A stretch of 64,000 nucleotides of DNA from an uncultured Roseobacter sp. Its GTDB lineage: Bacteria; Pseudomonadota; Alphaproteobacteria; Rhodobacterales; Rhodobacteraceae. The notes under the pieces were generated by a model. It saw only the letters and a list, made by a program, of their open reading frames with translations. It searched no databases and had not been told where the DNA came from. Each line of letters starts with the position of its first letter. Position 1 is the stretch's first letter. Location: positions 124,001-188,000 of the forward strand of contig CANKZM010000001.1 of NCBI GenBank assembly GCA_947488305.1, given 5' to 3'. Shown here one piece after another: positions 894 to 20,263 of this stretch. Made by a program: the position numbers and the translations under genes.

Positions 894-1472
894 ATGTCTG
901 CATGGATCAAAATGATCTCTGATGAGGACGCTGACGCGCCGTTGCAGGCCGCTTTGGATCTGGCAAGAACGCCACATGGGACTGTCGACAATGTGATGCG
1001 GGTGCACTCGCTGCGACCCAGCACGATGAATGGCCATGTAATCCTTTATCGCGCCTGTCTGCACGATCAGACCAACACGGTGCCAATGTGGTTTCAGGAA
1101 GTCATCAGTTCCTATGTGTCCGTCCTGAATGAATGTCCCTACTCATACGCCAACCATTGGAGCAACGCGCGGCATCTGATCGGTGATGAGCGACGCGCCG
1201 ATGACGTCGAGGCAGCACTGCAAGACCGTGCGCCGGAAAAAGCATTTGAAGGTAAGCAGTTGGAGGCACTACGCTACGCTGAAAAGCTGACCTGCGCGCC
1301 CGGAAAAATGGCAGAAACTGACATTACGCCGATGCGCGGTGCCGGCTGGGATGACGGCGAAATCCTCGAGATCAACCAGATCATCTGTTACTTCAACTAT
1401 GCCAACCGCCTGCTGAACGGGCTTGGGGTGACAACTGCGGGCGATGTTGTCGGGTATTACAAGAAAGACTGA
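894..1472 (+). CDS. AhpD-like / carboxymuconolactone decarboxylase-family protein with CPYS motif
   Basis: A 192-residue all-helical protein of the alkylhydroperoxidase D-like fold. The family site normally reads E-x-x-CxxC-x-x-x-H. Here it reads NECPYSYANH, so the resolving cysteine is replaced by serine and a classical disulfide cycle is not possible. The start at 894 (MSAWIKM) follows AAAGGG at a good distance; an in-frame ATG at 813 has no ribosome site. The XRE-cupin gene begins six bases after its stop, so the two are co-transcribed with the MATE pump. Family placement is fairly sure; function (peroxidase-like, decarboxylase or other) is not. Confidence 0.8.
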   Translation: MSAWIKMISDEDADAPLQAALDLARTPHGTVDNVMRVHSLRPSTMNGHVILYRACLHDQTNTVPMWFQEVISSYVSVLNECPYSYANHWSNARHLIGDERRADDVEAALQDRAPEKAFEGKQLEALRYAEKLTCAPGKMAETDITPMRGAGWDDGEILEINQIICYFNYANRLLNGLGVTTAGDVVGYYKKD

Positions 1473-1478
1473 CAGATC

Positions 1479-2066
1479 ATGCTGAACGACGCTCCGGGAA
1501 AGAGAATCGACGAGGCGATCGGAGCATCACTAAAGGAATTGCGGCAGCAGCGTTCCCACTCTGCCCGATGGTTGGCGGATCAGTCGGGGATATCGGCAGC
1601 CATGGTCAGTCGCATCGAAAATGGGTTGGTCTCTCCATCCATCGGGACTCTGGCCGCCCTTGCTGAGGCCTTGGAAGTGCCCATCGCTTCCTTGTTCCGC
1701 ACAGCCCGCACCGAACACACGGATTTCACATTGGTGCGCAACGGTGAAGGTCTCCGCTCAACGCGGATCGCAGATGAGCACAAACACGAATACGTCAACC
1801 TCGCGACCCACTCGCGCAGGGACCTCCATTTTATCGCTCGAAAGGTGACTTTGCTTCGGGATGACGGAAAACCGCCGACCTATGTGGGACATGGCGTTGT
1901 TTTCATTCAGGTCATCGAAGGCGAGGCCGTCTATCTTTATGGGCGCACGCGCCACACCCTGCGGACCGGCGACTCGATCAGCGTGGATGCGGAATTGAAT
2001 CACGGATTTGCCGAGGTACTGAGTCCAAAGTTCGAATTTCTGTCGGTTCAGGCAGAAAGGCTCTAG
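1479..2066 (+). CDS. XRE-family regulator with C-terminal cupin
   Basis: A 195-residue DNA-binding regulator. Residues about 15-70 form an HTH_3 domain with recognition region SGISAAMVSRIENGLVSPS. Residues about 115-190 form a cupin sensor (HGVVFIQVIEGEAVYLY, then HTLRTGDSISVDAELNHGF). Regulators of this type (SutR/PuuR-like architecture) usually bind a small pathway metabolite. It lies six bases after the AhpD-like gene and six bases before the MATE gene. A paralogue with near-identical recognition helix sequence lies at 15121-15726, so the two may read related operators. Confidence 0.9.
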   Translation: MLNDAPGKRIDEAIGASLKELRQQRSHSARWLADQSGISAAMVSRIENGLVSPSIGTLAALAEALEVPIASLFRTARTEHTDFTLVRNGEGLRSTRIADEHKHEYVNLATHSRRDLHFIARKVTLLRDDGKPPTYVGHGVVFIQVIEGEAVYLYGRTRHTLRTGDSISVDAELNHGFAEVLSPKFEFLSVQAERL

Positions 2067-2072
2067 CACTAC

Positions 2073-3452
2073 ATGGCAGCCCCCATCGACCTCGACCTTA
2101 CACAGGGATCAATTGCGACCCATTTCCGGGTGCTTGCCGTGCCCGCCGCTTTGGGCATGTTGTTCAACACGCTTTATAACGTCGTCGACATGTTCTTTGC
2201 CGGCATGCTGTCAACCAGTGCGCAGGCGGGGTTGGCGCTGGGGTATCAGGCGTTCTACATCGCTTTGTCGGTTGGTGTCGGGTTGGGCGCGGCCATGGGG
2301 GCGCTGGTCGGCAATGCTTTGGGTGCGGGTAACAGAAAAGGCGCCCGAAGGCTCGCTGCGCAGGGGATGAGCTTTGGTCTGGTTGCGGCGGGGCTGCTTG
2401 CCATCGCGGGGTTCTGGTATGGCCCTTTTGCGATCAAACTGGTGAGCGAACCCGGCCCATACCGGGAGGCCGGTATCAGGTACTTTCAGGTCCTTTCCTT
2501 TGCCTTACCCGCATTTCTGATGGCTTTTGCATGTAACGGCATCTTGCAGGCGCACGGGGACAGCAAATCGTTCCAGCGCGCGTTGCTGGTCGCTTTTCTC
2601 GCCAACATCGGCCTGAACCCTTTGATGATCTTTGGCATTCCAGGGTTGGTGCCCGGCATGGGCTTTGATGGTCTGGCAGCTTCTACCGTGCTCAGCCAGT
2701 CCGGTGTGATGACATATATGATCGTCCAGGTTCTGCGCCGACGCAACATGGCGCGCATCAGGGCTGCGCATTTCCTGCCGCGGATCGGTCCGTTCGGAAC
2801 CATAGGGCTGCAAACCATGCCTACCGCTGTGGCGATGCTTGTGATGTTTCTATCGGGCTTTGTCATGCAATACGCGTTGAAAGGATTTGGAGAGCATGCG
2901 GTGGCGGCTTACGGCGTCGCCATCAGGCTCGAGCAGATCCTCTTGCTGCCCATTCTCGGGGTGACCGGGGCCCTGCTGCCCATTGCGGCGCAGAATTTTG
3001 GCGCAAAAAAATATGAGCGTGTGCGAGGCTCAACGCATTTCTGCTGGAAGGTGGGGCTGGTCATGGCCGCTATCTCCTGCCCGGTTTTGTGGATATTCGC
3101 ACCCCATTTCCTCAGCCTGTTTTCCGATGATCCAGAGGTGATCCGTGTGGGCGTTGCCTATCTACGCGTGGATAGTCTGCTATTGCCTGCCTATATGATG
3201 CTGTTTTCGATCAACTCCCTGTTGCAGGCGCTGAAACGGCCCATTTGGACGGTATGGATCAGCCTTTACCGGCAGGGATTTGGCATCGCGTTCTTTGTTT
3301 GGGTCTTCGTCGGGCTATGGGGCTTTGATGAATACGGGGTTTGGTATGGTGTCGCCTGTGCCGTCCTCAGCGGGTTGGGCGTTGGGCTGTGGATTGCGAC
3401 GGTGATTGCCCGCACTGAGATTGGCGGGTTGTGGCGGCCGGTTACGGCTTAG
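2073..3452 (+). CDS. MATE-family multidrug/metabolite efflux transporter
   Basis: A 459-residue inner-membrane protein with about 12 hydrophobic segments in two similar halves, typical of MATE antiporters. The N-terminal LGMLFNTLYNVVDMFFAGML matches the conserved first-helix region of the family (P..l..l...vD...vG). It is co-transcribed with the XRE-cupin and AhpD-like genes, six bases downstream of the regulator, so export of a compound sensed by that regulator is a reasonable inference. It ends by overlapping the convergent amidase gene by four bases; no terminator hairpin separates them. Confidence 0.92.
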   Translation: MAAPIDLDLTQGSIATHFRVLAVPAALGMLFNTLYNVVDMFFAGMLSTSAQAGLALGYQAFYIALSVGVGLGAAMGALVGNALGAGNRKGARRLAAQGMSFGLVAAGLLAIAGFWYGPFAIKLVSEPGPYREAGIRYFQVLSFALPAFLMAFACNGILQAHGDSKSFQRALLVAFLANIGLNPLMIFGIPGLVPGMGFDGLAASTVLSQSGVMTYMIVQVLRRRNMARIRAAHFLPRIGPFGTIGLQTMPTAVAMLVMFLSGFVMQYALKGFGEHAVAAYGVAIRLEQILLLPILGVTGALLPIAAQNFGAKKYERVRGSTHFCWKVGLVMAAISCPVLWIFAPHFLSLFSDDPEVIRVGVAYLRVDSLLLPAYMMLFSINSLLQALKRPIWTVWISLYRQGFGIAFFVWVFVGLWGFDEYGVWYGVACAVLSGLGVGLWIATVIARTEIGGLWRPVTA

Positions 3453-4753
3453 GCCGTAGTTTGGAACGGATGCGCCTCGAATGCCTGCTCGACCCATTTG
3501 GCGGTGGTCAGAAGATGAGCGTCATCCCCGCGTCTGGCGATTAGCTGGATGCCCAAGGGCAAGCCATCTCTGGTCTTTCCATAGGGCAGCGCCACGGCAG
3601 GAAGCTGTAGCAGGTTCCACATCCGCGAATAGAGCGGATCACCTGTGGCATTCAATCCTTGCGGTGCGCCCCCGGGGGCCGAGGGTACCAACAGGGCGTC
3701 CACATCCCCCATCAGCGCATCCAGCAGCACATTTGCACGGTCGCGGGTCTGCAGGGCCAGCTCGTAGCTGCGGGCATCTACCTGCTGGCCCGCCCGGATC
3801 AGGTCCGCGAATTGAGAGCTGATCTGTTCTGGATACAGATCGAACTCTGCCATCCGGCTCTGCGCGGCTTCATATTCCATCACGGTGATCTGGGCGTCGG
3901 TCAAAGCTGCGAACACCTCAGGGTGGGCAATCTCTCCGGTTTCAGCGCCCTGTGCCGCCAACGCAGTCATGGCTTTGGAACAGACATCCCGCATCTCAAG
4001 ACCGCCATCCTGCCAATGCGGTCCGCGCATCAGGCTGATCCGGGGCGGGGTGTCTTCAAACGCAGGGGCGGGGGGCAGGCTCTGGCCGCTCAAGGCTTCT
4101 GTGGCGAGCATCAGATCCATGACGCTGCGCGCCAGAACTCCCAATGTGTCCAGCGAAGGTGAGAGGCACATCACGCCCTCCAAAGGAAACCCGCCGGTCG
4201 TTGGACGAAACGCCGCCAGACCGCAAAAGGCGGCGGGCCGGATCAACGACGCGGCAGTTTGCGAACCCAGACCAAGCGGCGCCATGTGGTCAGCCACAGC
4301 GGCCGCAGAGCCAGAGGAAGATCCCCCGGGGGTGTGCGTCAGCGCGTGTGGATTGGCAGTCTTGCCCGGATGGAAGTAAGCAAACTCAGTGGTCACGGTT
4401 TTGCCAATCGGGATCGCACCTGCGGCGATCAACGCGTCCACGCAGGCTGCGTTTTTTTCAGGGTGCCGGGTGTCATAGGGCGCGAACCCCCAGCCGGTTG
4501 GCATGTCGTTGGTGTCAATGATGTCCTTGATCACAAAGGGCACGCCGTGAAGTGGGCCTTTTGGTGCGATGCTGTCGGCATGCTCGGCAAGTGCCAAGGC
4601 AGCATCTTTATCGAGATAATGAAACGCACCCACCTGCGTTTCCCGCGTGGCGATCCGGTCCAGATGCGAGGCCATAACTTCGCTGGGTTTTGTGAGGCCC
4701 TCACGGATGAGCTCTGCGATCTTGGTCGCGCTGAGTTTATTCAACGCGGTCAT
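3449..4753 (-). CDS. Amidase-signature-family amidohydrolase
   Basis: A 434-residue cytoplasmic enzyme hydrolysing a carboxamide or related C-N bond. The Ser-cisSer-Lys triad is visible: Lys75 in PFVIKDIID, Ser145 in the TPGGSSSGSAAAVA loop, and nucleophile Ser169 in LGSQTAASLIRPAAFCG. The last motif departs from the usual GSQTGGSIRxPAA: two alanines replace two glycines. The final gene of the 11079-3449 operon, it overlaps DUF1116 by ATGA. It could be an allophanate-, glutamyl- or aryl-amide hydrolase; the substrate cannot be assigned. Confidence 0.92.
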   Translation of the reverse strand: MTALNKLSATKIAELIREGLTKPSEVMASHLDRIATRETQVGAFHYLDKDAALALAEHADSIAPKGPLHGVPFVIKDIIDTNDMPTGWGFAPYDTRHPEKNAACVDALIAAGAIPIGKTVTTEFAYFHPGKTANPHALTHTPGGSSSGSAAAVADHMAPLGLGSQTAASLIRPAAFCGLAAFRPTTGGFPLEGVMCLSPSLDTLGVLARSVMDLMLATEALSGQSLPPAPAFEDTPPRISLMRGPHWQDGGLEMRDVCSKAMTALAAQGAETGEIAHPEVFAALTDAQITVMEYEAAQSRMAEFDLYPEQISSQFADLIRAGQQVDARSYELALQTRDRANVLLDALMGDVDALLVPSAPGGAPQGLNATGDPLYSRMWNLLQLPAVALPYGKTRDGLPLGIQLIARRGDDAHLLTTAKWVEQAFEAHPFQTTA

Positions 4754-5943
4754 GCGGATAACGCGGCAAGCGCATCGGCAAAGGGGGTGACAGGCATATC
4801 ATAAATCCCGCCGCCCAGCCGCCCGGCAAGGCCTTCACGGTCAAGGATGCCCAAGCCGATGACTGGTCCTGCGCCCTGTGTCACGGCGCCGCGTGCCGTA
4901 CTGCCCAGACGAACATCCAGAGCACGGAAGTAGGGGTGCGCACCAACCGATAATCCGGATGTGCGTGCCTTGGCGTCGTCGGGCAGAAACGCCCCCAACC
5001 CGGCCTTTTGTTCGGGGCTCAGTTCAATCGCCATCGCGCCAAGTCCAAAGGCTTCGACAACAGCGCTGTCGCCGATTGCGCCCAAGGCACGACCCAGAGG
5101 CAGATCTACATCGAACCTTCCCTTTGGTGGCGTGGCGGGAGTGGTGAACCACTGGCCCGGCAGGCCCGCGACCTGAATGCCGACTTCACGGCCGTTGCCA
5201 CCGGCAGCGGTGACAAAGCTCGACCCTTCAATGCCTTCTGCCAGTTTCATCATGCATTTGGTGGCCGCCATCCAAAGGTTCAGAAACAGCGAGGGCGAGG
5301 TGGCCATGAATTCGAGCACATCCTCATCCGTGATCCCGCCCGGTGTGCGGTCCTTTAACTCGTGGATCAGCGCCTGTGCTGCAACGGGTGTGCGCCCGTG
5401 GCAATCGTCCCCGCCCATCAGGCCGACAACGGCCAGTGGCACCAGCGCAATGCCTTCGGCCAACCCAGCTTGCAGCACGTCCAGAAACCGTGTGTTGAGC
5501 CAGCGGATATGCTCCAGGACCGCTTCGGACCGCAGGCCCAGGCGCATCGCGGGGCGAGAGCCGCCATTGATCGGCGCGAAAACGCGCTGCGTCCCGCGCC
5601 AGGCATCATACACGCTGTGCAGCGGCATTGAGGCGGAAACAACGGCGGCCAGCGGCGTGACAATGTCATGATCTTGCGCCGGTTGCAGCAGGATCTCTTC
5701 GGACAGGATCATCGCCTCAGCCTGATCAAATTCTTTCGCCAGCCCTTCAAATACCGCGGCCACGCAGGCGGAATTGAGTATCGGTTCAGTGATCCTGTCG
5801 GTGGCATCAAAGGCTGGACCTGCATGCAAAAGCACGTTCTCAGGAAGGTTCACCGCATCTGCAGCGGTGTTGAAACGGTTCCATACTGGTTGAGTGACCA
5901 TTGCCTTATCGAAGGCCAGTTGGTCTGCGGGGTGCAGTGTCAT
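4750..5943 (-). CDS. DUF1116 protein (YlbE/AllG-like)
   Basis: A 397-residue protein with the conserved DUF1116 blocks, for example NGGSRPAMRLGLR, VVGLMGGDDCHGRT and TAAGGNGREVGIQV. The Escherichia coli relative YlbE belongs to the fdrA-ylbE-ylbF group linked to oxamate carbamoyl transfer in allantoin breakdown; I recall that assignment and apply it only by family. No fdrA-like partner is present here. The start at 5943 is preferred over 5967 because GGAGG lies four bases before it and it forms an ATGA overlap with the preceding stop. Its position next to an amidase suggests carbamoyl or amide chemistry in this pathway. Confidence 0.82.
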   Translation of the reverse strand: MTLHPADQLAFDKAMVTQPVWNRFNTAADAVNLPENVLLHAGPAFDATDRITEPILNSACVAAVFEGLAKEFDQAEAMILSEEILLQPAQDHDIVTPLAAVVSASMPLHSVYDAWRGTQRVFAPINGGSRPAMRLGLRSEAVLEHIRWLNTRFLDVLQAGLAEGIALVPLAVVGLMGGDDCHGRTPVAAQALIHELKDRTPGGITDEDVLEFMATSPSLFLNLWMAATKCMMKLAEGIEGSSFVTAAGGNGREVGIQVAGLPGQWFTTPATPPKGRFDVDLPLGRALGAIGDSAVVEAFGLGAMAIELSPEQKAGLGAFLPDDAKARTSGLSVGAHPYFRALDVRLGSTARGAVTQGAGPVIGLGILDREGLAGRLGGGIYDMPVTPFADALAALSA

Positions 5944-6566
5944 GACGCCTCCGGTGGGATGACCCATGTTTCACAGAAGTACAGAAATGCCGTTGTCGTC
6001 TCGTATCCAGCCTGAACGCGCTGGCCAATCTTCCCCGGCAAGCTTTGACCGTTGACGATGATCTGTGCCGAATGTGCGGGCACCAACAGCGTGAACATTG
6101 TGTGCTCGCCGGTGCCAACCTGATCCGGGGTCAGCTCCAGCGCGCGGGGTGGTTCGAGGTCCTCCCAGACCAGTTCCACAGTCAGGCTCGGCGCACTGAT
6201 GGTTTCGCAATACCGATGGCCCATCGGATCGCCGGAACTCCGCACGACCTGAGCGGTGATTTCCGGCAAAGTGGCAAATGCCGGGGCATTTGCAAATGCT
6301 GCCAGTTTGCCGATGAAGTTCTCTTTGAGATAGGCCGTCAGCGCAGCATTGTCGCTCAGGATCACATTGGGAGCATGCGGGGTTCCTTCTACAGCATCAG
6401 GCATGCCATAGAGCAGCAACACTTGTCCCTGACCTACGGGCGACCACGCGACACGAAAAAACAGTGCCATGGCTGAGAAGTTTCCATGCGCGTCCTTCAG
6501 CAGGATGCCCGGGTTTTCACCGGTCCAATCGACTACACCCGGTGTAACCGGTTCGTTCAATGGCAT
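5940..6566 (-). CDS. Protein of unknown family, paralogue 2 of a tandem pair
   Basis: A 208-residue soluble protein with no signal peptide or membrane segment, and I recognise no family. It is clearly related to the next gene upstream (6566-7201): both share WxGENPGIxLK near the N-terminus, LFFRVAxSPxGxG, a GxPD...PNxIxxDN block, YxET at mid-length, a NGxxLPG block and a C-terminal TxAFLxFxETWVxP. It overlaps its neighbours on both sides, so it is translationally coupled to the Rieske oxygenase operon. A heteromeric partner or accessory role is possible. No catalytic Cys/His/Asp cluster stands out. Confidence 0.85.
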   Translation of the reverse strand: MPLNEPVTPGVVDWTGENPGILLKDAHGNFSAMALFFRVAWSPVGQGQVLLLYGMPDAVEGTPHAPNVILSDNAALTAYLKENFIGKLAAFANAPAFATLPEITAQVVRSSGDPMGHRYCETISAPSLTVELVWEDLEPPRALELTPDQVGTGEHTMFTLLVPAHSAQIIVNGQSLPGKIGQRVQAGYETTTAFLYFCETWVIPPEAS

Positions 6567-7201
6567 CAGGCGGCTCCTCTTTTGGATGGGGACACCCAGG
6601 TCTCTGAGAATGCCAGAAAGGCCGTCGACATCGTACGCCCAAAGAACTGCCGGTCTGCGACCTGACCAGGCAAAGCTGTGCCGTTTATCTTGATCTCTGC
6701 TGTTTTGGCCTCAAGGAAGACGGAATACATCTCGTGCTCCTTGGTGGCGGAGTTCTCGGCAGTGACCTCAACAGGAAGAGGCGGGCCCATGTCCTGCCAG
6801 ATCATCTCCACCGTCACGCCCGACCCGCGCAGCGTTTCTGAATAGCGGGCCTTGAGGTCGCCTGGGCGCTTTTCAACGGCATCGCAATCGAGCCACGTCA
6901 TGGCGTTCAGACCTGCTTTGCCAATAAAGGTTGGCATCTTGGTGACCCAGCCGTCTATGATCCAGCGCATCATGCGCTGGTTGTCGGTCATGATCAGATT
7001 AGGCATATGCGGCCAGCCGCGAGCGTCGTCCGGTGCGCCAAGTACAATCGCAGCATGGCCCCGCCCGTAGGGCGACAGGGCCACGCGAAAGAACAGAGCC
7101 AGTGTGTCATATGTTGCGCTGCCCGGATCAGTCTTGAGGTAGATGCCGGGATTCTCACCCGCCCATTCGACCCGGCCCGGATTGTGAGAAATGCGTTTCA
7201 T
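6566..7201 (-). CDS. Protein of unknown family, paralogue 1 of a tandem pair
   Basis: A 211-residue protein beginning MKRISHNPGRVEWAGENPG, homologous over its full length to the 5940-6566 product. The start overlaps the Rieske gene stop as ATGA and the stop overlaps the sibling start as TGATG, so three genes are read as one coupled block. It is rich in aromatic residues and conserved Trp (WAGENPG, MIWQDMGPP, ETWV), which fits a ligand-binding beta fold, but that is inference. The sequence alone does not show whether the two copies are subunits of one complex or paralogues with different ligands. Confidence 0.85.
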   Translation of the reverse strand: MKRISHNPGRVEWAGENPGIYLKTDPGSATYDTLALFFRVALSPYGRGHAAIVLGAPDDARGWPHMPNLIMTDNQRMMRWIIDGWVTKMPTFIGKAGLNAMTWLDCDAVEKRPGDLKARYSETLRGSGVTVEMIWQDMGPPLPVEVTAENSATKEHEMYSVFLEAKTAEIKINGTALPGQVADRQFFGRTMSTAFLAFSETWVSPSKRGAA

Positions 7202-8556
7202 GTCCAGTTTGCCTCATATGTTTTGAGTGCATCGATGATAAAGCCCTTGCGCGCTTCGATGGGCTGCGCATCTCCCTTTTTGAAAATCTCAGCCACGGCA
7301 AAGGAGATCTCCTTGAGCACCGCACCGTCATCGCGGCCTTCCTGAAGGGGGATCCGCATGATCGAGTCGCCTGCATAGGTGGGCAGAATGCCTTTCCAAT
7401 TATCAGTCGGATGTTTGACCGGATTGCCCGCCGCGAGCGAACGGATTTCCTTGCGCAGCATGCGGCGCACTTTGGCTACCCCGCGGTCGGTAAAGCTGAG
7501 GTTTTCGCGGCTGTGGATGTTGCACGGCCCTTGGCTGACCCATGCGTCATAGTCGCCCGGATCACGCTGGCGCATCTCATAGGGGCGGTCGGGGTCCTGC
7601 CCGTAAAAGTCCGTCGATCCGTAGCCGACTTTTGATTTGTCGGTCAGCCCCTTGGGATCGTCGCCTTCACGGAAGTGCCGCCATGTCACGACCTGGGTAT
7701 GCGTGTCATCAATCGGAACGACCCAGCGGCTCAACCCGCAGCGCCCGAAATAGCGCGACCTGTCCGGCACAGGAAAATGCGCTCCGTTCTGGGTGAAAGA
7801 GGGCATCATGTGATCATGCACCCTGATCCAGACAAATTCATCCACCCGGCGCACATTGGTGTAGAACTCTCCGAACTCCGCCTCGTGAAATTCGATCATT
7901 GGCATTTCGGCAAAAGCATCGATGAACTGCGAACGCACCGCCAGAGTATGCAGATAGACCACATGGAACGGGTCCCACGCGTTCTCCATCACCTGCAACC
8001 AGTTACAGGGTGATTTGATCAGGGAGGGCAACATCTCATCGCCCTCTTCGTCGAAAGTGTCCATCACCGGGAAGGGCGGCTGTTCAGCGCGTGGACCCAT
8101 ATAGGTGAACGCCAGACCATTGTATTCGATCACCGGGTAGGCGCCCAGACAGGCCTTTTTCTTCACTTGTGAGGCGGGGGGCTCACACGGGGTTTCCAGC
8201 ACCGTGCCATCCAGCCCGTATTTCCACCCGTGATAGGAACAGCGAATGCCTCCCGGTTCGATAATGCCAAATTCAAGGCTCATGTTGCGATGCGCGCAGT
8301 GCAAATGGGTCAGCCCCAGCTTGCCTTCGCCGGGTTCGCGGAACAGCACCAGATCTTCGCCCAGGATGCGAATACGGTAAGGCAGGTCGCTGACCTGATC
8401 GGTCATCGCCACAGGCAGCCAGAACCGGCGCTGAAATTCGCCGCAGGGGGTGCCGGGGCCGACCTCGGTCAGCTCCGGGTCCGGAGACTGGCTCCAGACC
8501 GATTGGCGATCATGACCGCGAAAGTCGCCGTCTGGGGCTTTGAATGTTTCGCTCAT
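7198..8556 (-). CDS. Rieske non-heme iron oxygenase, phthalate-dioxygenase type
   Basis: A 452-residue oxygenase component. The N-terminal TPCGEFQRRFWLPVAM is typical of the phthalate 4,5-dioxygenase/phenoxybenzoate group. The Rieske [2Fe-2S] ligands are Cys87-x-His89 and Cys106-x-x-His109 (CAHRNMS ... CSYHGWK). The mononuclear iron site is in ENAWDPFHVVYLH, with His198 and His203 and the bridging Asp195. Enzymes of this group hydroxylate rings or demethylate/dealkylate amines and ethers. No reductase or ferredoxin gene is nearby, so electrons must come from a protein encoded elsewhere. Start ATG with GGAG upstream, 12 bases after the aldehyde dehydrogenase stop. Confidence 0.93.
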   Translation of the reverse strand: MSETFKAPDGDFRGHDRQSVWSQSPDPELTEVGPGTPCGEFQRRFWLPVAMTDQVSDLPYRIRILGEDLVLFREPGEGKLGLTHLHCAHRNMSLEFGIIEPGGIRCSYHGWKYGLDGTVLETPCEPPASQVKKKACLGAYPVIEYNGLAFTYMGPRAEQPPFPVMDTFDEEGDEMLPSLIKSPCNWLQVMENAWDPFHVVYLHTLAVRSQFIDAFAEMPMIEFHEAEFGEFYTNVRRVDEFVWIRVHDHMMPSFTQNGAHFPVPDRSRYFGRCGLSRWVVPIDDTHTQVVTWRHFREGDDPKGLTDKSKVGYGSTDFYGQDPDRPYEMRQRDPGDYDAWVSQGPCNIHSRENLSFTDRGVAKVRRMLRKEIRSLAAGNPVKHPTDNWKGILPTYAGDSIMRIPLQEGRDDGAVLKEISFAVAEIFKKGDAQPIEARKGFIIDALKTYEANWT

Positions 8557-8568
8557 GGCGTGCTCCGT

Positions 8569-10053
8569 TCAATCGTGATGTGGATGCTGCGGCGCAGGGA
8601 AGGGATCGGGAACCGGGTGGGTACCGGTCCAGATGGATTTGGTTTGCAGGAATTCTTTGATCGCCTCGGGCCCCAGTTCGCGCCCGTATCCCGATCGTTT
8701 CATACCTCCGATCGGGCTGCCGGGATCAACGCTGCGATAGTGATTGATATAGACTGTGCCGCTGTGCATGGCCGCTGCCACGCGCTGGCCCTTTTCGGGG
8801 TCACTGGTCCAGATACCGCCTGCCAGCCCATAGTCCGTGTCATTGGCCAATCGGATCGCGTCTGCCTCTTGCTCGAATGATGTTATTGCGAGCACTGGCC
8901 CGAACACCTCTTTGTGCCAAAGCTGCATCTCCGCAGTCACGTTATCAAAAATCGTCGGACCCACGTAGTAGCCAGCCTGTCCTTGCACGGTTTCAAGACC
9001 ATCCAGCAGACAGGTTGCGCCTTCTTGTTTGGCCCGTGCGATTATTTCTATGACCTTCTGATAATGCGGCGCATTGGCAAGCGGCCCGATTTCCGTGTCC
9101 GGGTCCATCGGGTTTCCGGGCCTCAGCGCCCTGCTTCTTTCCAGCAATCTGTCAGTCAGGGCGTCTTTGATGGAGGATTGCACAATCAAGCGAGAGCCTG
9201 CCACGCAGGTCTGGCCGTTTGACAGGAAAATTCCGGACAGAACCCCGTTCACGGTGTTCTCCAGATCACAATCCGCGAAGACTACCTGAGCCGATTTTCC
9301 GCCGAGTTCGAGCGTCGTTGGGATCACACTGGCAGATGCGGCCTCTGCCACCTTTTGCCCGCCCGCATCGGAGCCGGTAAATGTCACCTTGCGGGTCAGC
9401 GGATGACGGACCAGCGCCTCGCCCGCTTCGTGGCCCAGACCTGTGACAACGTTCAACACGCCTTTTGGCAACCCTGCATCAAACGCCATTTTGGCAAATG
9501 CAACGGTCGAGGCTGTCGCCATTTCAGATGGTTTTACCACAACCGTGTTGCCTGCCGCGAGCGCTGGGGCAAGTTTCCAAGCCAGGATCATCAGCGGCGA
9601 GTTCCAAGGGGTTATCGCGACAACCACCCCAAAGGGCACGTGATATCCGGTGCTTTTGACACCCGGTATGGAGTTGGACTGTGGCTCCGGCGCAAGGTCG
9701 CGCGCGGCCCTCGCAAAATGTCTGTACCATGTGTGAAGACCGGCAAACTGACTTCGGACCTCGCTGATCCGCTTTCCATTGTCCCGCACCTCAGGCTCGA
9801 CCAGCTCTTCCCATCGAGCTTGGAGCACGTCGGCCAGCCGTTCCAGCTTTGCTGCGCGGGCGTTTGCGTCCGCTTCTGCCCACGGGCCGCTTCGAAAGGC
9901 GCAGTCAGCTGACAGGATCGCAGCATCCGCTTCGGCGTGACCACAGCGGGCGAGTCTGCTCCAGACCTTTCCAGTGGCCGGATCAATGCTGTCGATCGTC
10001 GAACCCTTCCAATCGCGGCTGACGCCATCAATAAAAGGTTTGAAGACCTGCAT
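8569..10053 (-). CDS. NAD(P)-dependent aldehyde dehydrogenase
   Basis: A 494-residue enzyme oxidising an aldehyde to a carboxylate. Visible family residues are Asn151 (ITPWNSPL), Lys174 (VVVKPSE), general base Glu249 (LELGGKS) and catalytic Cys283 (NGQTCVAGS). Length is normal for the betaine/aminobutyraldehyde/semialdehyde group. It starts directly after the deacylase stop (adjacent bases), inside the 11079-3449 operon. The divergent ThDP decarboxylase would make an aldehyde from a 2-oxo acid, and this enzyme is the obvious next step, though that link is inference. Confidence 0.95.
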   Translation of the reverse strand: MQVFKPFIDGVSRDWKGSTIDSIDPATGKVWSRLARCGHAEADAAILSADCAFRSGPWAEADANARAAKLERLADVLQARWEELVEPEVRDNGKRISEVRSQFAGLHTWYRHFARAARDLAPEPQSNSIPGVKSTGYHVPFGVVVAITPWNSPLMILAWKLAPALAAGNTVVVKPSEMATASTVAFAKMAFDAGLPKGVLNVVTGLGHEAGEALVRHPLTRKVTFTGSDAGGQKVAEAASASVIPTTLELGGKSAQVVFADCDLENTVNGVLSGIFLSNGQTCVAGSRLIVQSSIKDALTDRLLERSRALRPGNPMDPDTEIGPLANAPHYQKVIEIIARAKQEGATCLLDGLETVQGQAGYYVGPTIFDNVTAEMQLWHKEVFGPVLAITSFEQEADAIRLANDTDYGLAGGIWTSDPEKGQRVAAAMHSGTVYINHYRSVDPGSPIGGMKRSGYGRELGPEAIKEFLQTKSIWTGTHPVPDPFPAPQHPHHD

Positions 10054-11079
10054 TCAGCTTTCCTTTGAATCCAGGGAAGGATCAGTTACGTCCTGCGCGA
10101 TCAGCGCCAGCAATTCGTCACGGCGCACCATGCCCCGGTTGCCATGAGCCAGCACAAATCCACTTGTTGAAAAGCGCAACGGTAAGGGCGTTCGCGAAGG
10201 TTCCAGCGGAAAGTGCAACAGGCCTGCCGACTGGTTGCGCGCAACGTCCTGCCCGGCTGATATCTGGCGATCAAAGAGACCGTCCGCAGGCGCATAGACC
10301 GAGTGCAAAGGTGACGCAATACTGACCCGGCGTGTGATTTCGCTGCCCGGTTTGGTACCTTTCAGAATACTGAGGTGAACCAGACAATTGCGCAGTCCCG
10401 TCTCCGCCATGTTTGTGATTTCAGGATGTACACCCCCGCCGCCGCCAAGTTCCGTTGCAATCATGGGTACGCCCGCCCGTTCAGCGGCTGCATTGACCGA
10501 GCGATTGTCATTGTGTTTGCCCAGCATCCAAACCAGCGGTAGTCCAAAAGCCCGCGCCAGATCGTCAGAGGCGGCAGCGAGGGCGGTATCCGACATCTCT
10601 GAAATCAACGTGCTAGGCTGAAAAAAGGATGCCTTGCCGCCGGAGTGCAGATCAATCACGGCGTCACAGTCTGCTAGCAGATGCTCGACAAAATTGGCCA
10701 GCATCGCCGTAGGGCCGCCCAGCCCGTCGCCCGGGAAGGCTCGGTTGAGGTTCTCTCCATCCAAGGGGGAGACACGCGAAGACGCCGCGACCGCTGGGGC
10801 ATTGAAGGCGGGCAGGAAGATGATCTGTCCCGAGATTTCGTCAAGGTCCAGCGTCGCCACCAATCTCATGATGGCAGAGGGGCCTTCAAACTCGTCCCCA
10901 TGGGTGCCGCCGATGATCAGAAGCGTCGGGCCTGTTCCGTTTTTCAGACTGATGATTGGGATCGGATGATAGCCCAAGGGGTTGGTGTTGTCCGACCATT
11001 TGAGCATCGCATCCCCGACCTGTCGGCCCGGTGCCGTCAGGTCGATCGTCAGGGTCAGGGTATCCGTTTTGTCGGCCAA
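10054..11079 (-). CDS. Succinylglutamate desuccinylase/aspartoacylase-family deacylase (DoeB-like)
   Basis: A 341-residue zinc hydrolase that would remove an N-acyl group from an amino acid. Zinc ligands are visible as His60 and Glu63 (GGTHGDEFEGP) and His145 (VIDLHSGG); SPLDGENLNRAFPG is the substrate-arginine region. Length and motifs resemble N-acetyl-diaminobutyrate deacetylase (DoeB) of ectoine breakdown, but the other ectoine gene, doeA, is absent. It begins with TTG at 11079; GAGAG lies eleven bases upstream and no better in-frame start was found. First gene of the seven-gene minus-strand operon, divergent from the aminotransferase. Confidence 0.9.
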   Translation of the reverse strand: MADKTDTLTLTIDLTAPGRQVGDAMLKWSDNTNPLGYHPIPIISLKNGTGPTLLIIGGTHGDEFEGPSAIMRLVATLDLDEISGQIIFLPAFNAPAVAASSRVSPLDGENLNRAFPGDGLGGPTAMLANFVEHLLADCDAVIDLHSGGKASFFQPSTLISEMSDTALAAASDDLARAFGLPLVWMLGKHNDNRSVNAAAERAGVPMIATELGGGGGVHPEITNMAETGLRNCLVHLSILKGTKPGSEITRRVSIASPLHSVYAPADGLFDRQISAGQDVARNQSAGLLHFPLEPSRTPLPLRFSTSGFVLAHGNRGMVRRDELLALIAQDVTDPSLDSKES

Positions 11080-11193
11080 GGATATACGACTCTCTTTTGC
11101 AGGTGCATTTCTTTTATCATAATATTTTTGGAAGTGAATTGATTGTTTTTGTTATTCATGTGATATTTTGGGAATTGCGATCCGGAGACAATG

Positions 11194-12288
11194 ATGGCCG
11201 TTCAGCGCGCAAAGCAGGGGATAGAGCGGATCAAGCCGCATATGCTTGTAGGGCAGACTGACGGTGTGCCGCCGGCCTCTGTTCTGCTGAACTCGAACGA
11301 GAGCGCTTTCGGAGCCAGTCCGCTGGCCCGTCAAGCCGCGCGCGCCGCTATGGCGGGTATCGAAAGGTATCTGGAAAACGTTGATAATGTTCTTGTACCT
11401 GCACTCGCTTGCCATTTCGGCCTGGACCCAGCACGGATCACCACGGGGCAGGGCTCGGACGATCTGCTAGCCCGACTGGCCCGGGGATATTTGGGTCCGG
11501 GAACTGAGTTGCTGCGCAGTGCCAACAGCTATCTCAAGGTACCCAACTACGCCCATGCGAACGACGCCGATGTGGTGTCGGTTGCGGACGATAACTTCAA
11601 ACCGTCGGTTGATGCGCTGATTGCGGGCCTGACAGAGCGCACTCGGATTGTCTATCTGGCCAACCCTGAAAACCCTGCGGGCACTTATCTGGGCGGTGCC
11701 GAGGTCAGAAAACTGCATGCCGCCATGCCGGTGTCCGCTCTATTGGTTCTTGATTGCGCCTATGAGGAATATGTGGATGCCCCGGATTATGAAGCTGGAC
11801 ATGTGCTGGTTGAGGAAGCCGACAACGTGGTCATGTGCCGAACTTTTTCAAAGATTTACGGCTTGGCGGGCGCACGGGTTGGCTGGTTGTACGGACCGGA
11901 AGATGTTGTGGACACGGTGCGCAGGCTCGCGCTGACCTTTCCGATTGCGACGCCCTCTGTGGCTGCGGTTATCGCCGCGATGGAGGACACGGCGCATGTG
12001 CGAGCCACCTATGCCGCCAACCTCGAAGGGCGCACCTGGCTGACGCGTCAACTTACTGATCTTGGGCTCGAGGTGATCCCCAGTCAGACCAATTTTGTCC
12101 TGGTCCACATGCCCGATCCCGCCATTTCTGCCAAAGCCTGTGAGGCAGCGCTGCGTCAGCAGGGTATCGCGATCCGGCGCATGGCGGCACCCGCCTACGA
12201 GGATTATATCCGCATCACGATCGGACATGCTGCTGACATGACACTGGTGCGCGATGCGATTGCACGTTTTCTGGAAGGAAACGCCTGA
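11194..12288 (+). CDS. PLP-dependent aminotransferase, HisC-like
   Basis: A fold-type I class I/II aminotransferase of 364 residues. Landmarks, counting from this start, are LLNSNESAFG near residues 32-41 (as in HisC), NPENPAGTY at 158-166, Asp187 in LLVLDCAYEEY, the PLP lysine Lys220 in RTFSKIYGLAG, and Arg228 in RVGW. Two adjacent ATGs exist; the one at 11194 gives a six-base gap from CGGAG, the one at 11191 only three. It overlaps the next gene by TGATG. It sits next to a 2-oxo-acid decarboxylase, so a catabolic transaminase producing that oxo acid is more likely than histidine biosynthesis. Confidence 0.92.
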   Translation: MAVQRAKQGIERIKPHMLVGQTDGVPPASVLLNSNESAFGASPLARQAARAAMAGIERYLENVDNVLVPALACHFGLDPARITTGQGSDDLLARLARGYLGPGTELLRSANSYLKVPNYAHANDADVVSVADDNFKPSVDALIAGLTERTRIVYLANPENPAGTYLGGAEVRKLHAAMPVSALLVLDCAYEEYVDAPDYEAGHVLVEEADNVVMCRTFSKIYGLAGARVGWLYGPEDVVDTVRRLALTFPIATPSVAAVIAAMEDTAHVRATYAANLEGRTWLTRQLTDLGLEVIPSQTNFVLVHMPDPAISAKACEAALRQQGIAIRRMAAPAYEDYIRITIGHAADMTLVRDAIARFLEGNA

Positions 12289-12836
12289 TGGTTGCCACTG
12301 CCCCCTCTGATGGGGATGCCCCGCAGGTCGCACATCCATCTGGTGCTGAAATCATACGCCAGATCAAAGCCGCAAACGTCAGAGAGATTGTTGCTTTGCC
12401 CGACATTGTCACCAGTGACGGGTTGCTCTGGCCGATCTCGAAGGACCCGGAGTTTCGCCTGACCCGCATCTGCAAGGAGGACGAGGGCGTCAGCATCTGT
12501 GGTGCGATGTCCTATAATGGTACGCGGGCCGTTTTGATGATGCAGCAGACCGGGTTGATGGATTCCCTCAATGCCATTCGTGCCATCGGTGTGGATTATG
12601 AACTGCCGATCGTGATGTTGGTCGGCCTGCAAGGCAAGGAACCCCATCTGCTACCCGATGCCTCGGCTTCATATGGTGTTCGCATCGTCCGCCCTGTTCT
12701 GGATGCGATGGGTCTTTCACACTCTCTGATCGAAGAGCCGCAAGATGTGGCGCATATCCCAACGGCTATTGACGCAGCATATGCCAACTCCCGCCCCCAT
12801 ATCTTTTTGGTCGGTCGCGCGCCGGTGGTATCATGA
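12288..12836 (+). CDS. ThDP-dependent decarboxylase, alpha (PYR-domain) subunit, ComD-like
   Basis: A 182-residue protein equal to the N-terminal half of a thiamine-diphosphate decarboxylase. The activating glutamate is in RICKEDEGVSICG, followed by a glutamine-rich MMQQTGLMDSLNAIRAI region as in sulfopyruvate and phosphonopyruvate decarboxylases. The ThDP-binding GDG motif is absent here and present in the next gene, so the enzyme is split into two subunits. It overlaps the aminotransferase by one base and the beta subunit by four. The sulfopyruvate/phosphonopyruvate family name does not fix the substrate; any 3-substituted 2-oxo acid is possible. Confidence 0.88.
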   Translation: MVATAPSDGDAPQVAHPSGAEIIRQIKAANVREIVALPDIVTSDGLLWPISKDPEFRLTRICKEDEGVSICGAMSYNGTRAVLMMQQTGLMDSLNAIRAIGVDYELPIVMLVGLQGKEPHLLPDASASYGVRIVRPVLDAMGLSHSLIEEPQDVAHIPTAIDAAYANSRPHIFLVGRAPVVS

Positions 12837-13414
12837 GCTTCAAAAGAGACGACGCCCTGCGCGTTCTCATCCCGCATGTGGCCGAAACTGACATTGTCGT
12901 GGCCGTGTATCAAAGCTGCTTTGACTGGTTGGTGCTGAACCCTCGGGATCTGAACTATGTCGCGGTTGGTGCAATGGGGCAGGCATCTTCCCACGGGTTG
13001 GGGCTTGCACTGGCCAACCCTGAACGTCGGGTGATTGTACTGGACGGGGATGGCAGCTTGCTGATGAACCTTGGATCACTTGTCACTGTGGCAAATGCGG
13101 GCGTGACCAACTTTTATCACTTTCTGTCAGCAAACCGGGTTTATGAGGTCAATGGCGCACATCCTCTGCCGGGCGCCGAAACGGTCGATTTCGCAGGCAT
13201 AGCAGCGGCAGCGGGGTATGTCGGGTCGCGCAGCATCTCGACTTTGGAGGGTTTTTCGGGCCAGTTGCCGGAAATCTTCGCTCAGCCGGGCCCGCAGTTC
13301 ACCGGGCTCGAATGGAGCGCCGGGGAAGATTATCCGCGAGACTATCACTACATCCATAGCGCCGAGGCCCGCAGCCGCTTTCGTCAGGCACTTGCGCGCC
13401 AGTCAACAGATTAA
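12833..13414 (+). CDS. ThDP-dependent decarboxylase, beta (ThDP-binding) subunit, ComE-like
   Basis: A 193-residue partner of the alpha subunit. It holds the cofactor motif GDGSLLMNLGSLVTV with the closing asparagine in LSANRVYEVNG about 27 residues on, and the GAMGQASSHGLGLALA block before it. A usual second Asn/Asp of the magnesium site is changed: most relatives read DNGVY here, this one reads ANRVY. ATGA overlap couples it to the alpha subunit. The product of the pair would be an aldehyde, and an aldehyde dehydrogenase is encoded on the divergent operon. Confidence 0.88.
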   Translation: MSFKRDDALRVLIPHVAETDIVVAVYQSCFDWLVLNPRDLNYVAVGAMGQASSHGLGLALANPERRVIVLDGDGSLLMNLGSLVTVANAGVTNFYHFLSANRVYEVNGAHPLPGAETVDFAGIAAAAGYVGSRSISTLEGFSGQLPEIFAQPGPQFTGLEWSAGEDYPRDYHYIHSAEARSRFRQALARQSTD

Positions 13415-13523
13415 AGTACGGACCCCTACCGTTGTTCAGGCCGCTCCGATCATTCGCGATCAGTCAACATTGCTCACGGGTGATGAGGACGGTTGACACG
13501 CGGTTCATCGTGCGCGCCCTTTT

Positions 13524-13562
13524 GTTGCACATAAAGAAACATGTTGCGGGAAAGGCAACGTG
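13524..13562. promoter_or_regulatory. Candidate operator and hairpin before the MttB-like gene
   Basis: Bases 13524-13547 start with GTTGCACATAAAG and continue AACATGTTGC, resembling the 785-809 region. Bases 13540-13562 form an inverted repeat, CATGTTGC with GCAACGTG, seven of eight paired, spacer seven. It sits 35-75 bases before the GTG start of the MttB-like gene and after the decarboxylase beta subunit, so it may set a separate promoter. It could equally be an mRNA hairpin. Confidence 0.3.
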
Positions 13563-13597
13563 CACGTAGGCTGCCCGGAGCAAATCGGAGACCCAAA

Positions 13598-15124
13598 GTG
13601 GCACGACGTTCAGCACGAAAACGCAGAGATCAGAATGCCGCACTGGAACAGACGCCTTGGCAGCGGTTCAAAAACCCTTACCCGCCGATTGAGATTCTGA
13701 CGCCAGATCAACTGCAACTGATTCATGACAATTCCATGCGCATCCTGAGCGACATTGGCATCAAAGTGCTGTGCGCGCGCGCGCGCAGTTATCTGGCAAA
13801 GGCCGGATGCAAAGTGGATGAGGCCAGCGAGATGGTTCGGTTTGATCCCGATGCGGTCATGGAACTGATAGCACAGGCCCCCGCATCAGTTGACCTGCAC
13901 GCCCGTAATCCGGACTACAATCTGACGCTGGGCGGGAACGAGATCGTCTTTTCCTCTGTCATGTGCCCGCCATTTGCCAATGACCTTGACCGTGGCCGTC
14001 GTGCGGGAACGTTTGAGGAAATGTGCGAATATGTGAAACTGGTCCACGCCATCAACGCGGTGCATCAAGCCGGAGGAGGCGGATTTGAACCGCTTGATCT
14101 GCCGGCCGAAACGCGGCATCTGGATGTGGCTTTTGCCCATGCCACGCTCACTGACAAATCCTGGAAGTTCTGGAGCAACGGGAAGATCCGAGCGCTGGAT
14201 GCCATCGAGATCGCCAAGATCATCATGGAGTGTGACGAAGATGGCCTTGTCGCACGGCCCGCCGTGACTGCCCCGATTAACACCAATTCCCCGCTCATGA
14301 TCGACACGGCCATGGCCGAGGGCATTGTCGAAATGGCGCGTGTTGGGCAACCGCTGATCATCGCCCCCTTCACCATGGCGGGTGCGATGAGCCCGGCCAC
14401 CGAGGCCGGTGCGCTGTCCGTCCAGAACGCAGAAGCCTTGGCAGGTTGCGCGCTTGCGCAGGCCGTGCGCCCCGGTGCGCCGGTGGTATACGGCTCCTAT
14501 CTGACCAATGTGGACATGCGCAGCGGCTCACCCGTGTTTGGCACGCCAGTCTTTGCGAAAACGACCTGGGCCTCTGGCCAGCTTGCCCGCCGCTATGGTT
14601 TGCCGTTTCGCTCGTCTCTGAATACGGGCTCAAACTCGGTCGATGCGCAAGCCGCTTATGAAACAGAAATGTGCCTGTGGTCCGCCGTGATGGGGCACGC
14701 CAATATCATCTTTGCCGCCGCGGGCTGGCTGGAGGGAGGACTGTCAGGATCGTTTGAAAAGCTGATCCTCGACGCCGAGATTTTGCAACTGATGACCGAA
14801 AGCATGAAACCCATGACGGTCAACGCGGATACGTTAGGTTTCGACGCTATCAAAGAGGTCGGTCCGGGCGGGCATTTCTTTGGCTCACCCCATACGCTGG
14901 AACGATATGAACATGCGTTCTACCATCCAATACTCACCGACACGCGCAACTATGAGACCTGGGCAGAACAAGGTGCCGAGTCAGCAGAGGTGCGCGCCAA
15001 TCGCATCTGGAAGCAAATGCTGGCTGAATACGAAAAGCCGCCGATGGATGCAGGCGTTGAAGAACAGCTGAAGGATTTTATCGCGCGTCGCAAGCACGAG
15101 ATCACGGCGGAAAACGCGGCCTAG
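13598..15124 (+). CDS. MttB-superfamily (trimethylamine methyltransferase-like) protein, non-pyrrolysine
   Basis: A 508-residue TIM-barrel protein of the MttB superfamily, with HQAGGGGFEPLDLPAETRHLD, PLIIAPFTMAGAMSPAT and GGHFFGSPHTLERYEHAFYHP as family-style blocks. The frame is open without any internal amber codon, so it is a non-pyrrolysine member like the glycine-betaine methyltransferases. The GTG at 13598 is chosen because GGAG lies seven bases upstream; an in-frame ATG at 13541 has no clear site. No corrinoid protein or its activator is encoded in the window. The first 25 residues are very basic (RRSARKRR). Activity and methyl acceptor are unknown. Confidence 0.88.
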   Translation: MARRSARKRRDQNAALEQTPWQRFKNPYPPIEILTPDQLQLIHDNSMRILSDIGIKVLCARARSYLAKAGCKVDEASEMVRFDPDAVMELIAQAPASVDLHARNPDYNLTLGGNEIVFSSVMCPPFANDLDRGRRAGTFEEMCEYVKLVHAINAVHQAGGGGFEPLDLPAETRHLDVAFAHATLTDKSWKFWSNGKIRALDAIEIAKIIMECDEDGLVARPAVTAPINTNSPLMIDTAMAEGIVEMARVGQPLIIAPFTMAGAMSPATEAGALSVQNAEALAGCALAQAVRPGAPVVYGSYLTNVDMRSGSPVFGTPVFAKTTWASGQLARRYGLPFRSSLNTGSNSVDAQAAYETEMCLWSAVMGHANIIFAAAGWLEGGLSGSFEKLILDAEILQLMTESMKPMTVNADTLGFDAIKEVGPGGHFFGSPHTLERYEHAFYHPILTDTRNYETWAEQGAESAEVRANRIWKQMLAEYEKPPMDAGVEEQLKDFIARRKHEITAENAA

Positions 15125-15726
15125 GTGATCTTTGCAGCGATTGACGTGAAGGTAACCGACTTGGTGATTACCTCTTTGACTCCGTGCAACAGTTCCGCGT
15201 CAAAGCTGAGTGAATCCCCCAGAGCCATGGGAAAATCCTTGTCTCCGCACTGGTAAATGCACTCCCCCCTGGTGACTGTCAAAAAGACGTAACCGCGGTT
15301 GATGTACTTGGGATGGTTGTCATCCTTGCGCCGCTTGATGGTGATGGAGGCGGCCTCAAACTCAAGCGGGTTTTTGCGGTGCCGACCCAGAATGCGAAAT
15401 TCATGCTGATGATCGGTAAAGATGCGGGTTGCGGGCAGGCCTTGGCCGGCTTTGACATGGGTCACATCCGCGGTTTGGACACTGTCTGCGAAGAAGGTGA
15501 TCACGGACAGCGAAAGCGCACTCGCGAGCGCCTCAAGCGTGCTCAGCGAGGGGGATACCTGGCCGTTTTCGATGCGTGAGACCATCGCAGAGGATATCCC
15601 TGAAAGCTCAGCCAGTTTGCGCAGGGAAATATGCGCGATTTCCCTTTGCCGTTTGACCGCAAGGCCTACCGTGACAGAGAGATCAACCTTGTCGGGTGGG
15701 ATGTCTGTTGGGTTTGGCTGATCCAA
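15121..15726 (-). CDS. XRE-family regulator with C-terminal cupin (second copy)
   Basis: A 201-residue regulator with HTH_3 at about residues 20-75 (ELSGISSAMVSRIENGQVSPSLSTL) and a cupin at about 125-195 (YINRGYVFLTVTRGECIYQC, then DSLSFDAELLHGV). It is a clear paralogue of the 1479-2066 protein, and 18 of about 20 residues around the recognition helix are the same or similar. It is the last gene of the minus-strand peptide-importer operon, 39 bases after the aminopeptidase-like gene, and overlaps the convergent MttB-like gene by four bases at the 3' ends. It is the best candidate to control the 3.4-22 kb genes. Confidence 0.9.
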   Translation of the reverse strand: MDQPNPTDIPPDKVDLSVTVGLAVKRQREIAHISLRKLAELSGISSAMVSRIENGQVSPSLSTLEALASALSLSVITFFADSVQTADVTHVKAGQGLPATRIFTDHQHEFRILGRHRKNPLEFEAASITIKRRKDDNHPKYINRGYVFLTVTRGECIYQCGDKDFPMALGDSLSFDAELLHGVKEVITKSVTFTSIAAKIT

Positions 15727-20261: not shown

Positions 20262-20263
20262 TA

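Follow-up and report, generated by a model that had tools for sequence, protein, structure and literature searches.

The analysed window is a stretch of 64,000 nucleotides from an uncultured Roseobacter sp. (assembly GCA_947488305.1, contig CANKZM010000001.1, positions 124,001 to 188,000), and near its start lies a core of 10 genes in two divergent units, seven on the minus strand (11079 down to 3449) and three on the plus strand (11191-13414). That these ten genes form one pathway is well supported. An earlier first-pass annotation had described ten genes in two divergent units joined by overlaps or short gaps, with one further gene behind them; the open reading frame (ORF) map confirmed this arrangement and all 11 ORFs. 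Read 5' to 3', the junctions of the minus unit are gaps of 0 and 12 bases followed by overlaps of 4, 1, 28 and 4 bases, and the plus unit is joined by overlaps of 1 and 4 bases. Two of the core proteins, here named ParA and ParB, are a paralogue pair; a scan of named genomes gave 214 ParA/ParB relatives, and the best 80 by ParA likeness were analysed as related loci. Genes were called by a simple codon model, and their starts may be off. The core features are as follows, the minus unit being given from its 5' end.

10054-11079, minus strand: DoeB/AspA-family N-deacylase (AstE_AspA, PF24827), in 27/80 related loci and in G014, G510, G1036 and G1037
8569-10053, minus strand: aldehyde dehydrogenase (ALDH; PF00171), in 32/80 loci, adjoining the Rieske orthologue in both SAR116 loci compared
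7198-8556, minus strand: Rieske non-haem iron oxygenase of the phthalate-dioxygenase type (PF00355; best PDB match 7fhr, E 4.5e-46), in 57/80 loci
6566-7201, minus strand: ParA, member of the paralogue pair, mostly-beta
5940-6566, minus strand: ParB, member of the paralogue pair, 37% identical to ParA, in 59/80 loci
4750-5967, minus strand: AllG-family protein (DUF1116, now AllG; PF06545, E 8e-60), candidate for a carbamoyl-transfer or ureido-acid step, in 52/80 loci
3449-4753, minus strand: amidase-signature hydrolase (PF01425), in 30/80 loci
11080-11190, no strand: divergent intergenic region of 111 bases between the starts (ORF map), presumed promoter between the two core operons
11191-12288, plus strand: HisC-like class I/II aminotransferase (AT; TIGR01141, PF00155)
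12288-12836, plus strand: ComD-like half of a thiamine diphosphate (ThDP) 2-oxo-acid decarboxylase (TIGR03845)
12833-13414, plus strand: ComE-like half of the same decarboxylase (TPP_enzyme_C; TIGR03846)

The deacylase scores 197.1 bits against DoeB (TIGR02994; equivalog cut-off 402.7) and the AT scores 241 bits against HisC (TIGR01141; equivalog cut-off 276.55), both under the cut-off. The ComD half likewise does not reach the cut-off for sulfopyruvate decarboxylase TIGR03845 (83.8 vs. 147.95 bits), nor the ComE half that of TIGR03846 (93.8 vs. 221.5 bits); ComE carries the ThDP-binding C-terminal domain (PF02775, 54.4 bits), and the adjacent halves together qualify, in the broad sense, as a ThDP decarboxylase. 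AllG matches PF06545 with 202.5 bits, above the cut-off of 27. The partner subunit AllH (PF11392) was found in none of the six island genomes examined, out of eight known in the family sample, and the same search was positive for G242, which has an ordinary AllG, and for the E. coli control. The Rieske domain scores 56.2 bits, and the nearest solved structure, 7fhr, is a putative phthalate 4,5-dioxygenase. No cognate reductase for this oxygenase lies within the window core; reductase-like genes elsewhere are an FNR/Fer2 protein in the Variovorax locus L134 (its relative in L135 is split over two reading frames, and L136 ends before it), a 36% identical relative of that protein in the SAR116 locus L072, and a Pyr_redox/Reductase_C protein in L085. 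ParA and ParB gave zero Pfam or NCBIfam matches at E 0.001. ParA has a confident AlphaFold prediction (mean predicted local distance difference test score, pLDDT, 91.8), with which a fold search of the PDB returned nothing at E 0.001; the matches to a phosphosteroid lyase (best E, 0.0032) and to an AttH-like fold (highest probability, 0.72) were too weak for use.

Among 295 Rhodobacteraceae genomes, ParA is present in 8, its own included, and ParB in the same 8. AllG relatives of at least 51% identity are confined to these 8 (next 41%), and ComD relatives of at least 60% identity occur in 9, i.e., the same 8 and G014 (next best 34%). The core is syntenic in G200, G228, G201, G270 and G059, with its order largely kept despite different surroundings; the amidase is missing in G228, ALDH and amidase in G201, and ALDH and deacylase in G059. 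The core of G079 and G233 is scattered over contigs, that of G233 being rearranged as well. The related loci, 37 of which are shorter than 19 kb, carry titles such as Ruegeria, SAR116, Arenicellales and Variovorax. In 38 of the 80 loci six or more of the 10 core families stand together, the level of co-occurrence that the first-pass annotation had asked to be looked for, and a single core family stands alone in 13. ComD is present in 37 loci, in which ComE is found 37 times, Rieske, AllG and ParB 36 times each, AT 35, deacylase 26, amidase 23 and ALDH 21 times. These counts bear out the earlier view of one conserved catabolic set to which no pathway had been assigned. When seven core proteins are compared across 33 loci, in rows that reach 40% identity and 85% coverage, their pairwise distances correlate at 0.81-0.93, as expected if the genes travel together, although shared ancestry alone also yields correlation; the Fisher values ignore relatedness. 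ParA-like genes with no Rieske or AllG gene nearby occur in L099, L100, L103, L104, L106-L110, L112 and L113, loci titled Elioraea, Neoroseomonas, Stella, Siccirubricoccus, Caldovatus, Belnapia, Rokubacteria and SAR324 among others, and given these genes the ParA/ParB family may have a wider role.

Outside the family ComD is rare, being found at E 1e-30 in 6 of 384 other genomes of the class and in 0 of 397 other genomes of the phylum; it is also present in several gammaproteobacterial metagenome-assembled genome (MAG) loci among the best 80 of the 214 ParA loci. It occurs in 6 of the 61 genomes of the family of G510, which is SAR116, since G1036 is 100% identical to locus L072, titled SAR116. 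In these SAR116-type genomes two unlinked modules are found. Module 1 keeps together AT-ComDE, the deacylase, a second Rieske gene (Rieske2), sarcosine-oxidase (Sox) genes, a LysR gene and an importer; in G1038 the space from AT to Rieske2 is taken up by dipeptide-type ATP-binding cassette (ABC) genes, the deacylase being represented there only by a 31-32% relative, and in G1039 and G1037 the contig breaks off inside the cluster. Module 2 lies, in G510, more than 1.2 Mb from module 1 (1.55 Mb along the record). It comprises ParA and ParB, two Rieske genes, the first of them 71% identical, ALDH, genes for an FNR-like protein and an FmdA-like amidase, and an importer that its sequence marks as Pot-type. 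The likeness of the SAR116 module 2 to the core is 69-71% for the Rieske and 52% for the ALDH protein.

A ParA match was found in 6 of 6 ComD-positive and 0 of 14 ComD-negative SAR116-type genomes, so that the modules belong together even when unlinked; the six positives span three genera and are thus not independent. The 25 genomes chosen comprised these six, the 14 negatives, selected mostly by completeness (41 further negatives lie outside the sample), and G426, G420, G014, G507 and G596. The pair is degraded in one of these six, G1077: ParA has an internal stop, ParB survives only as a fragment, and ComD is present as a fragment where a contig ends. Among the last five, only G420 has a ParA match, and its ComD match has an internal stop. 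In the hut-linked island of G510 a relic of the ParB C-terminus was detected (L142:9108-9230), with two full-length relatives more than 1.2 Mb off. As to whether the two divergent units separate freely, a question raised by the first-pass annotation, the answer is divided: they stand apart in SAR116, and AT-ComDE occurs without ParAB in G014 and G426, yet the modules still co-occur.

The range assigned earlier (3449-15124) holds the core genes, but the unit reaches further, with the importer, soxBDAG, Rieske2, an exporter and regulators outside it. The 20 kb upstream of the window (L115) contain soxBDAG, a LysR gene, the importer, Rieske2 (DdmC-like), a NicX-like gene, a desaturase-type gene and a Rieske ferredoxin. 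Most of these wider-island genes and the core lie within about 28 kb in G228, in a different order, and the sets of G200 and G201 are similar.

L115:17284-19887, just upstream of the window: importer permease, binding protein and second permease, with neighbours of EhuD/GlnP/cystine type and ArgT type
L115:18220-19032: importer binding protein
1-694, minus strand: ATPase of the polar amino-acid ABC importer (ABC_tran), cut by the window start, with 65-85% identical copies in the G200, G228 and G201 islands
813-1472, plus strand: AhpD/peroxidase-related accessory protein (TIGR01926, 83.8 bits vs. 81.8)
1479-2066, plus strand: PuuR-like regulator 1, its PuuR-like match far under the cut-off, travelling with the AhpD/peroxidase gene and the MATE gene
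2073-3452, plus strand: MATE exporter (TIGR00797, above cut-off), in 7/80 related loci and in the G200, G201 and G228 islands
15121-15726, minus strand: PuuR-like regulator 2, tentative island member, with an 80% identical copy directly beside soxB in G270

Copies of the AhpD/peroxidase-related protein, 67-86% identical, are neighbours of the core or of the importer in G228, G201, L040, L044, L049, L050, L052, L054, L055 and G510. At L115:10098-11354 a fatty-acid-desaturase-type gene is followed by a small Rieske ferredoxin, and this pair is kept near soxBDAG in G200, G228 and G201.

All four subunits of a heterotetrameric sarcosine oxidase, SoxBDAG, are present just upstream of the window. 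SoxA (1170.5 bits, cut-off 1164), SoxD (97.4, cut-off 27) and SoxG (21.2, cut-off 21) reach their cut-offs, whereas SoxB, at 477.6 bits, is under the TIGR01373 cut-off of 529.45. In a single quick FastTree run, 25 island-side SoxA proteins (from Rhodobacterales, G014, SAR116, five other proteobacterial MAG loci and G426) were split with support 1.0 from 13 other SoxA, 12 of which are other copies from the same genomes; the SoxA of L030 (G233) groups with these others and not with the island side. The island SoxA is the lowest-scoring full-length SoxA in G000, which holds four, and in G014, G201, G510 and G1036, and the second lowest in G200 and G270. Because the island SoxA proteins form a separate clade and score low, their sequences argue for an island Sox that would serve a special N-methyl substrate rather than plain sarcosine.

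The further gene behind the core, which the first-pass annotation had taken as part of the system, did not hold up as a member, since it is found in 0 of the 80 related loci at a threshold of 40% identity.

13541-15124, 126 bases after the plus unit: MttB-family gene (TIGR02369, 316.8 bits, under the cut-off of 525)

Its frame has no internal stop, and it is one of seven MttB-family genes in the genome. A dipeptide ABC system at 16847-21937 was also rejected as a core member, with permease B (40%) and the binding protein (42%) both in 0 of 80 loci; weaker matches are present in L103 and L114. In G1038, G1039 and G420, AT-ComD or ComDE does have dipeptide-type ABC genes nearby, and a peptide-linked substrate is therefore conceivable. 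Beside the dipeptide system, the window gene at 15766-16842 is a paralogue (35% identical) of the island gene L115:8834-9946, neither having a Pfam match. The predicted fold of its product (model mean pLDDT 70.3) best matches the 2,5-dihydroxypyridine dioxygenase NicX (E 1.5e-16) and, more weakly, M29 aminopeptidases.

Clues to the substrate come from the neighbours of the conserved genes. In 4 of 4 SAR116-type genomes with sufficient contig reach, module 1 adjoins hutU, which follows the importer directly in G1036, G1038 and G1039 and in G510 is set off from it by three more genes plus the ParB relic; hutH, hutI-like and hutF-like genes are next in three of the four, G1039 ending inside hutU. 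Here HutF was checked by Pfam in G510, and hutU, hutH and hutI were recognised by likeness to the hut genes of G000 (G000 hutH being PF00221). Three Variovorax loci (L098, L101 and L102 with L134-L136; each family identified by a scan of one strain and traced by identity in the other two) show the order Rieske-ParA-importer-AllG-binding protein, then an opposite-strand LysR-like gene (about 25% to LysR), an alcohol dehydrogenase and a second urocanase, and continue with a CoA-transferase (III), an amidase and, in 2 of the 3, an aldolase-like gene. Each of the three genomes has another urocanase elsewhere, and the locus possibly encodes a related pathway for a urocanate-like compound. These hut and urocanase links were spotted post hoc among many possible neighbours. 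Furthermore, genes of the creatininase family and for hydantoinase A/B lie at most about 15 kb from AT-ComDE-Sox in G426, and G014, from which the ring module is absent, has molybdenum-hydroxylase-like genes and a two-subunit Rieske enzyme (as judged from sequence) near AT-ComDE, deacylase and Sox. The neighbouring genes point to an imidazole or hydantoin ring plus an N-methyl group, and the polar amino-acid-type importer is counted as a sign of an amino-acid substrate.

The island is tentatively read, at somewhat less than even confidence, as a system for the aerobic catabolism of an N-methylated, probably histidine-derived (imidazole) amino acid, which might be, e.g., a ring-methylated histidine from anserine-type peptides or a histidine betaine. 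We infer the substrate, the order of the steps and every catalytic role of ParA/ParB and AllG as follows. The amino acid would be taken up by the polar amino-acid ABC importer and converted by the HisC-like AT to a 2-oxo acid, which ComDE would decarboxylate to an aldehyde and ALDH would oxidise to a (methyl)imidazole-acetate-type acid; the transamination, decarboxylation and oxidation already suggested by the first-pass annotation remain the most likely use of these three enzymes. The phthalate-dioxygenase-type Rieske enzyme would then oxidise the ring, and ring opening with removal of an N-carbonyl fragment would fall to ParA/ParB, AllG and the amidase (an FmdA-type amidase in SAR116). Should ring C2 finish as a carbamoyl group, AllG could transfer this to phosphate. 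The DoeB-type deacylase, which the first-pass annotation had put at the start but which could act last in the pathway, would release an N-methyl amino acid such as N-methylaspartate, to be demethylated by the island SoxBDAG; Rieske2 may demethylate too.

Several observations weigh against this reading. AllG, amidase, ALDH and deacylase are each absent from some related loci, and ParAB occurs in SAR116 loci with no AllG relative beside it. The called genes of the Rhodobacterales loci include zero hutI, hutH, hutG or hutU relatives, and a histidine-ammonia-lyase-family gene is present in G000 and in five of six other genomes examined, so that plain histidine needs no second route. Characterised ComDE relatives use sulfo- or phosphonopyruvate rather than imidazole pyruvate. 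The G426 aminotransferase is only 31% like its G014 counterpart, ComDE stands beside a flavoprotein-like gene and apart from other island genes in G507, G596 and G673, and the NicX-like protein of the wider island would equally suit a pyridine ring. ComDE relatives of one genus (47-50% identical) adjoin a flavoprotein-like gene in L147, L149 and L151, the other island genes being absent.

One rival to a single pathway is that several separate pathways for nitrogen compounds (betaine demethylation, a 2-oxo-acid branch and an aromatic branch) share the island through co-regulation or joint travel. The separation of the modules in SAR116, the occurrence of AT-ComDE alone in G014 and G426 and the 13 loci with one core family only would all agree with this; however, the unlinked modules still co-occur (6/6 vs. 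0/14) and the distinct Sox clade tracks AT-ComDE across lineages, which leaves it unlikely. A little less likely again is the same architecture acting on a histidine betaine (hercynine or ergothioneine), whose alpha-N-methyl groups would be stripped first by Rieske2 and SoxBDAG before AT, ComDE, ALDH and Rieske act on the freed (thio)histidine. The ring C2 of ergothioneine is already at the urea level and would suit AllG, a SoxBDAG paralogue and a DdmC-like Rieske lie near the importer, and the adjoining hut genes in SAR116 would take freed histidine. Yet AT-ComDE and the ring module would be superfluous for hercynine once histidine had been released.

An N-methylated pyridine-type substrate of the homarine/trigonelline class, degraded by Rieske hydroxylation, NicX-like cleavage, deformylation, amide hydrolysis and oxidation of N-methylglutamate, appears improbable. 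The u358/u370 model matches 2,5-dihydroxypyridine dioxygenase (E 1.5e-16), phthalate-type Rieske enzymes are generally suited to carboxylated rings, and an N-formyl-type deacylase and Sox would fit, but u370 is not a core member and its fold is common to M29 peptidases. Moreover, AT and ComDE would go unused, yet both stay with Sox and the deacylase in G014, where the ring module is absent. Ruegeria pomeroyi, which reportedly has a described homarine catabolism operon and is said to be the model homarine degrader, is not among the best 80 of the 214 ParA loci. A sulfonate or phosphonate route, in which a cysteate- or phosphonoalanine-like amino acid is transaminated, acted on by a true sulfopyruvate or phosphonopyruvate decarboxylase and then oxidised, is very improbable: those families are the nearest to ComD and ComE, but the scores are far under their cut-offs (83.8 against 147.95 bits for ComD, 93.8 against 221.5 bits for ComE), and Rieske, ParAB, AllG, amidase and Sox are left unexplained. 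We give equally little credence to a biosynthetic reading, in which the cluster would make a small natural product and the MATE protein would export it. MATE, HisC-like AT, ComDE-like and Rieske proteins are all known in general from biosynthetic clusters, whereas the importer, SoxBDAG, ALDH, deacylase and LysR/PuuR regulators typically belong to catabolic loci, and zero assembly-line or carrier-protein families were found among the genes scanned. Conversion of tryptophan to indoleacetate was set aside, as Sox and AllG would have no role and the importer is of the polar type.

The island can be set beside several known systems. Ectoine degradation (doe) has in common with the island a DoeB-like deacylase, an aminotransferase, an ALDH and an Ehu-like importer, and we know of no counterpart there of ComDE, Rieske, ParAB, AllG or Sox. 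The two-subunit sulfopyruvate/phosphonopyruvate decarboxylases are split ThDP enzymes like the island pair, whose halves are far under the curated cut-offs; similarly, SoxBDAG agrees with the heterotetrameric sarcosine oxidase in its four subunits, but the island SoxA falls in a separate clade and SoxB under its cut-off. The hut pathway adjoins module 1 in SAR116-type genomes and has a urocanase paralogue in the Variovorax version; unlike hut, the core is without an ammonia-lyase, a urocanase and an imidazolonepropionase, and has an aminotransferase, a decarboxylase and an oxygenase instead. In the hin system of Pseudomonas putida U, according to a review, an aminotransferase and an aldehyde dehydrogenase lead to imidazole-4-acetate and later steps to aspartate (PMC8231116). 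This histamine/imidazoleacetate system, compared by its description, shares the aminotransferase and ALDH with the island; however, it starts from an amine and has no need for ComDE, and the term Rieske is absent from that review (PMC8231116). AllFGH is an oxamate transcarbamylase that passes the carbamoyl group of oxalurate to phosphate (PMC11326118). The AllG subunit family is common to both, but the island has two small proteins, ParA and ParB, beside AllG, and AllH is missing from all six island genomes examined; membership in AllFGH is therefore not claimed.

A bolder proposal, which is possible but doubtful, is that the island encodes a second bacterial route of the histidine type. The AT, ThDP and ALDH enzymes would supply the Rieske oxygenase with an imidazole-acetate-type acid, and a ParA-ParB heterodimer with AllG, a subunit recruited away from allantoin catabolism, would form a new ring-opening complex that releases the ring carbon as carbamoyl phosphate and hands the N-methyl amino acid to the dedicated SoxBDAG. 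Rhodobacterales and SAR116 would use this route on methylhistidines or histidine betaines.

No description of a pathway with this gene set was found in the open-access literature, mainly among the best matches. Every enzyme family of the island is known except ParA/ParB, and what is new is the combination of these families as a catabolic island together with an undescribed protein family. The locus thus represents a conserved catabolic system with a ParA/ParB family outside Pfam and NCBIfam and with an AllG that lacks its partner AllH, in which proteins otherwise named unknown, amidase or sulfopyruvate decarboxylase become parts of one pathway. If the substrate is indeed an N-methyl histidine derivative, the island would provide a way of using nitrogen compounds that come from animal tissue and from fungi or cyanobacteria, and the pathway would be testable in culturable Ruegeria species.

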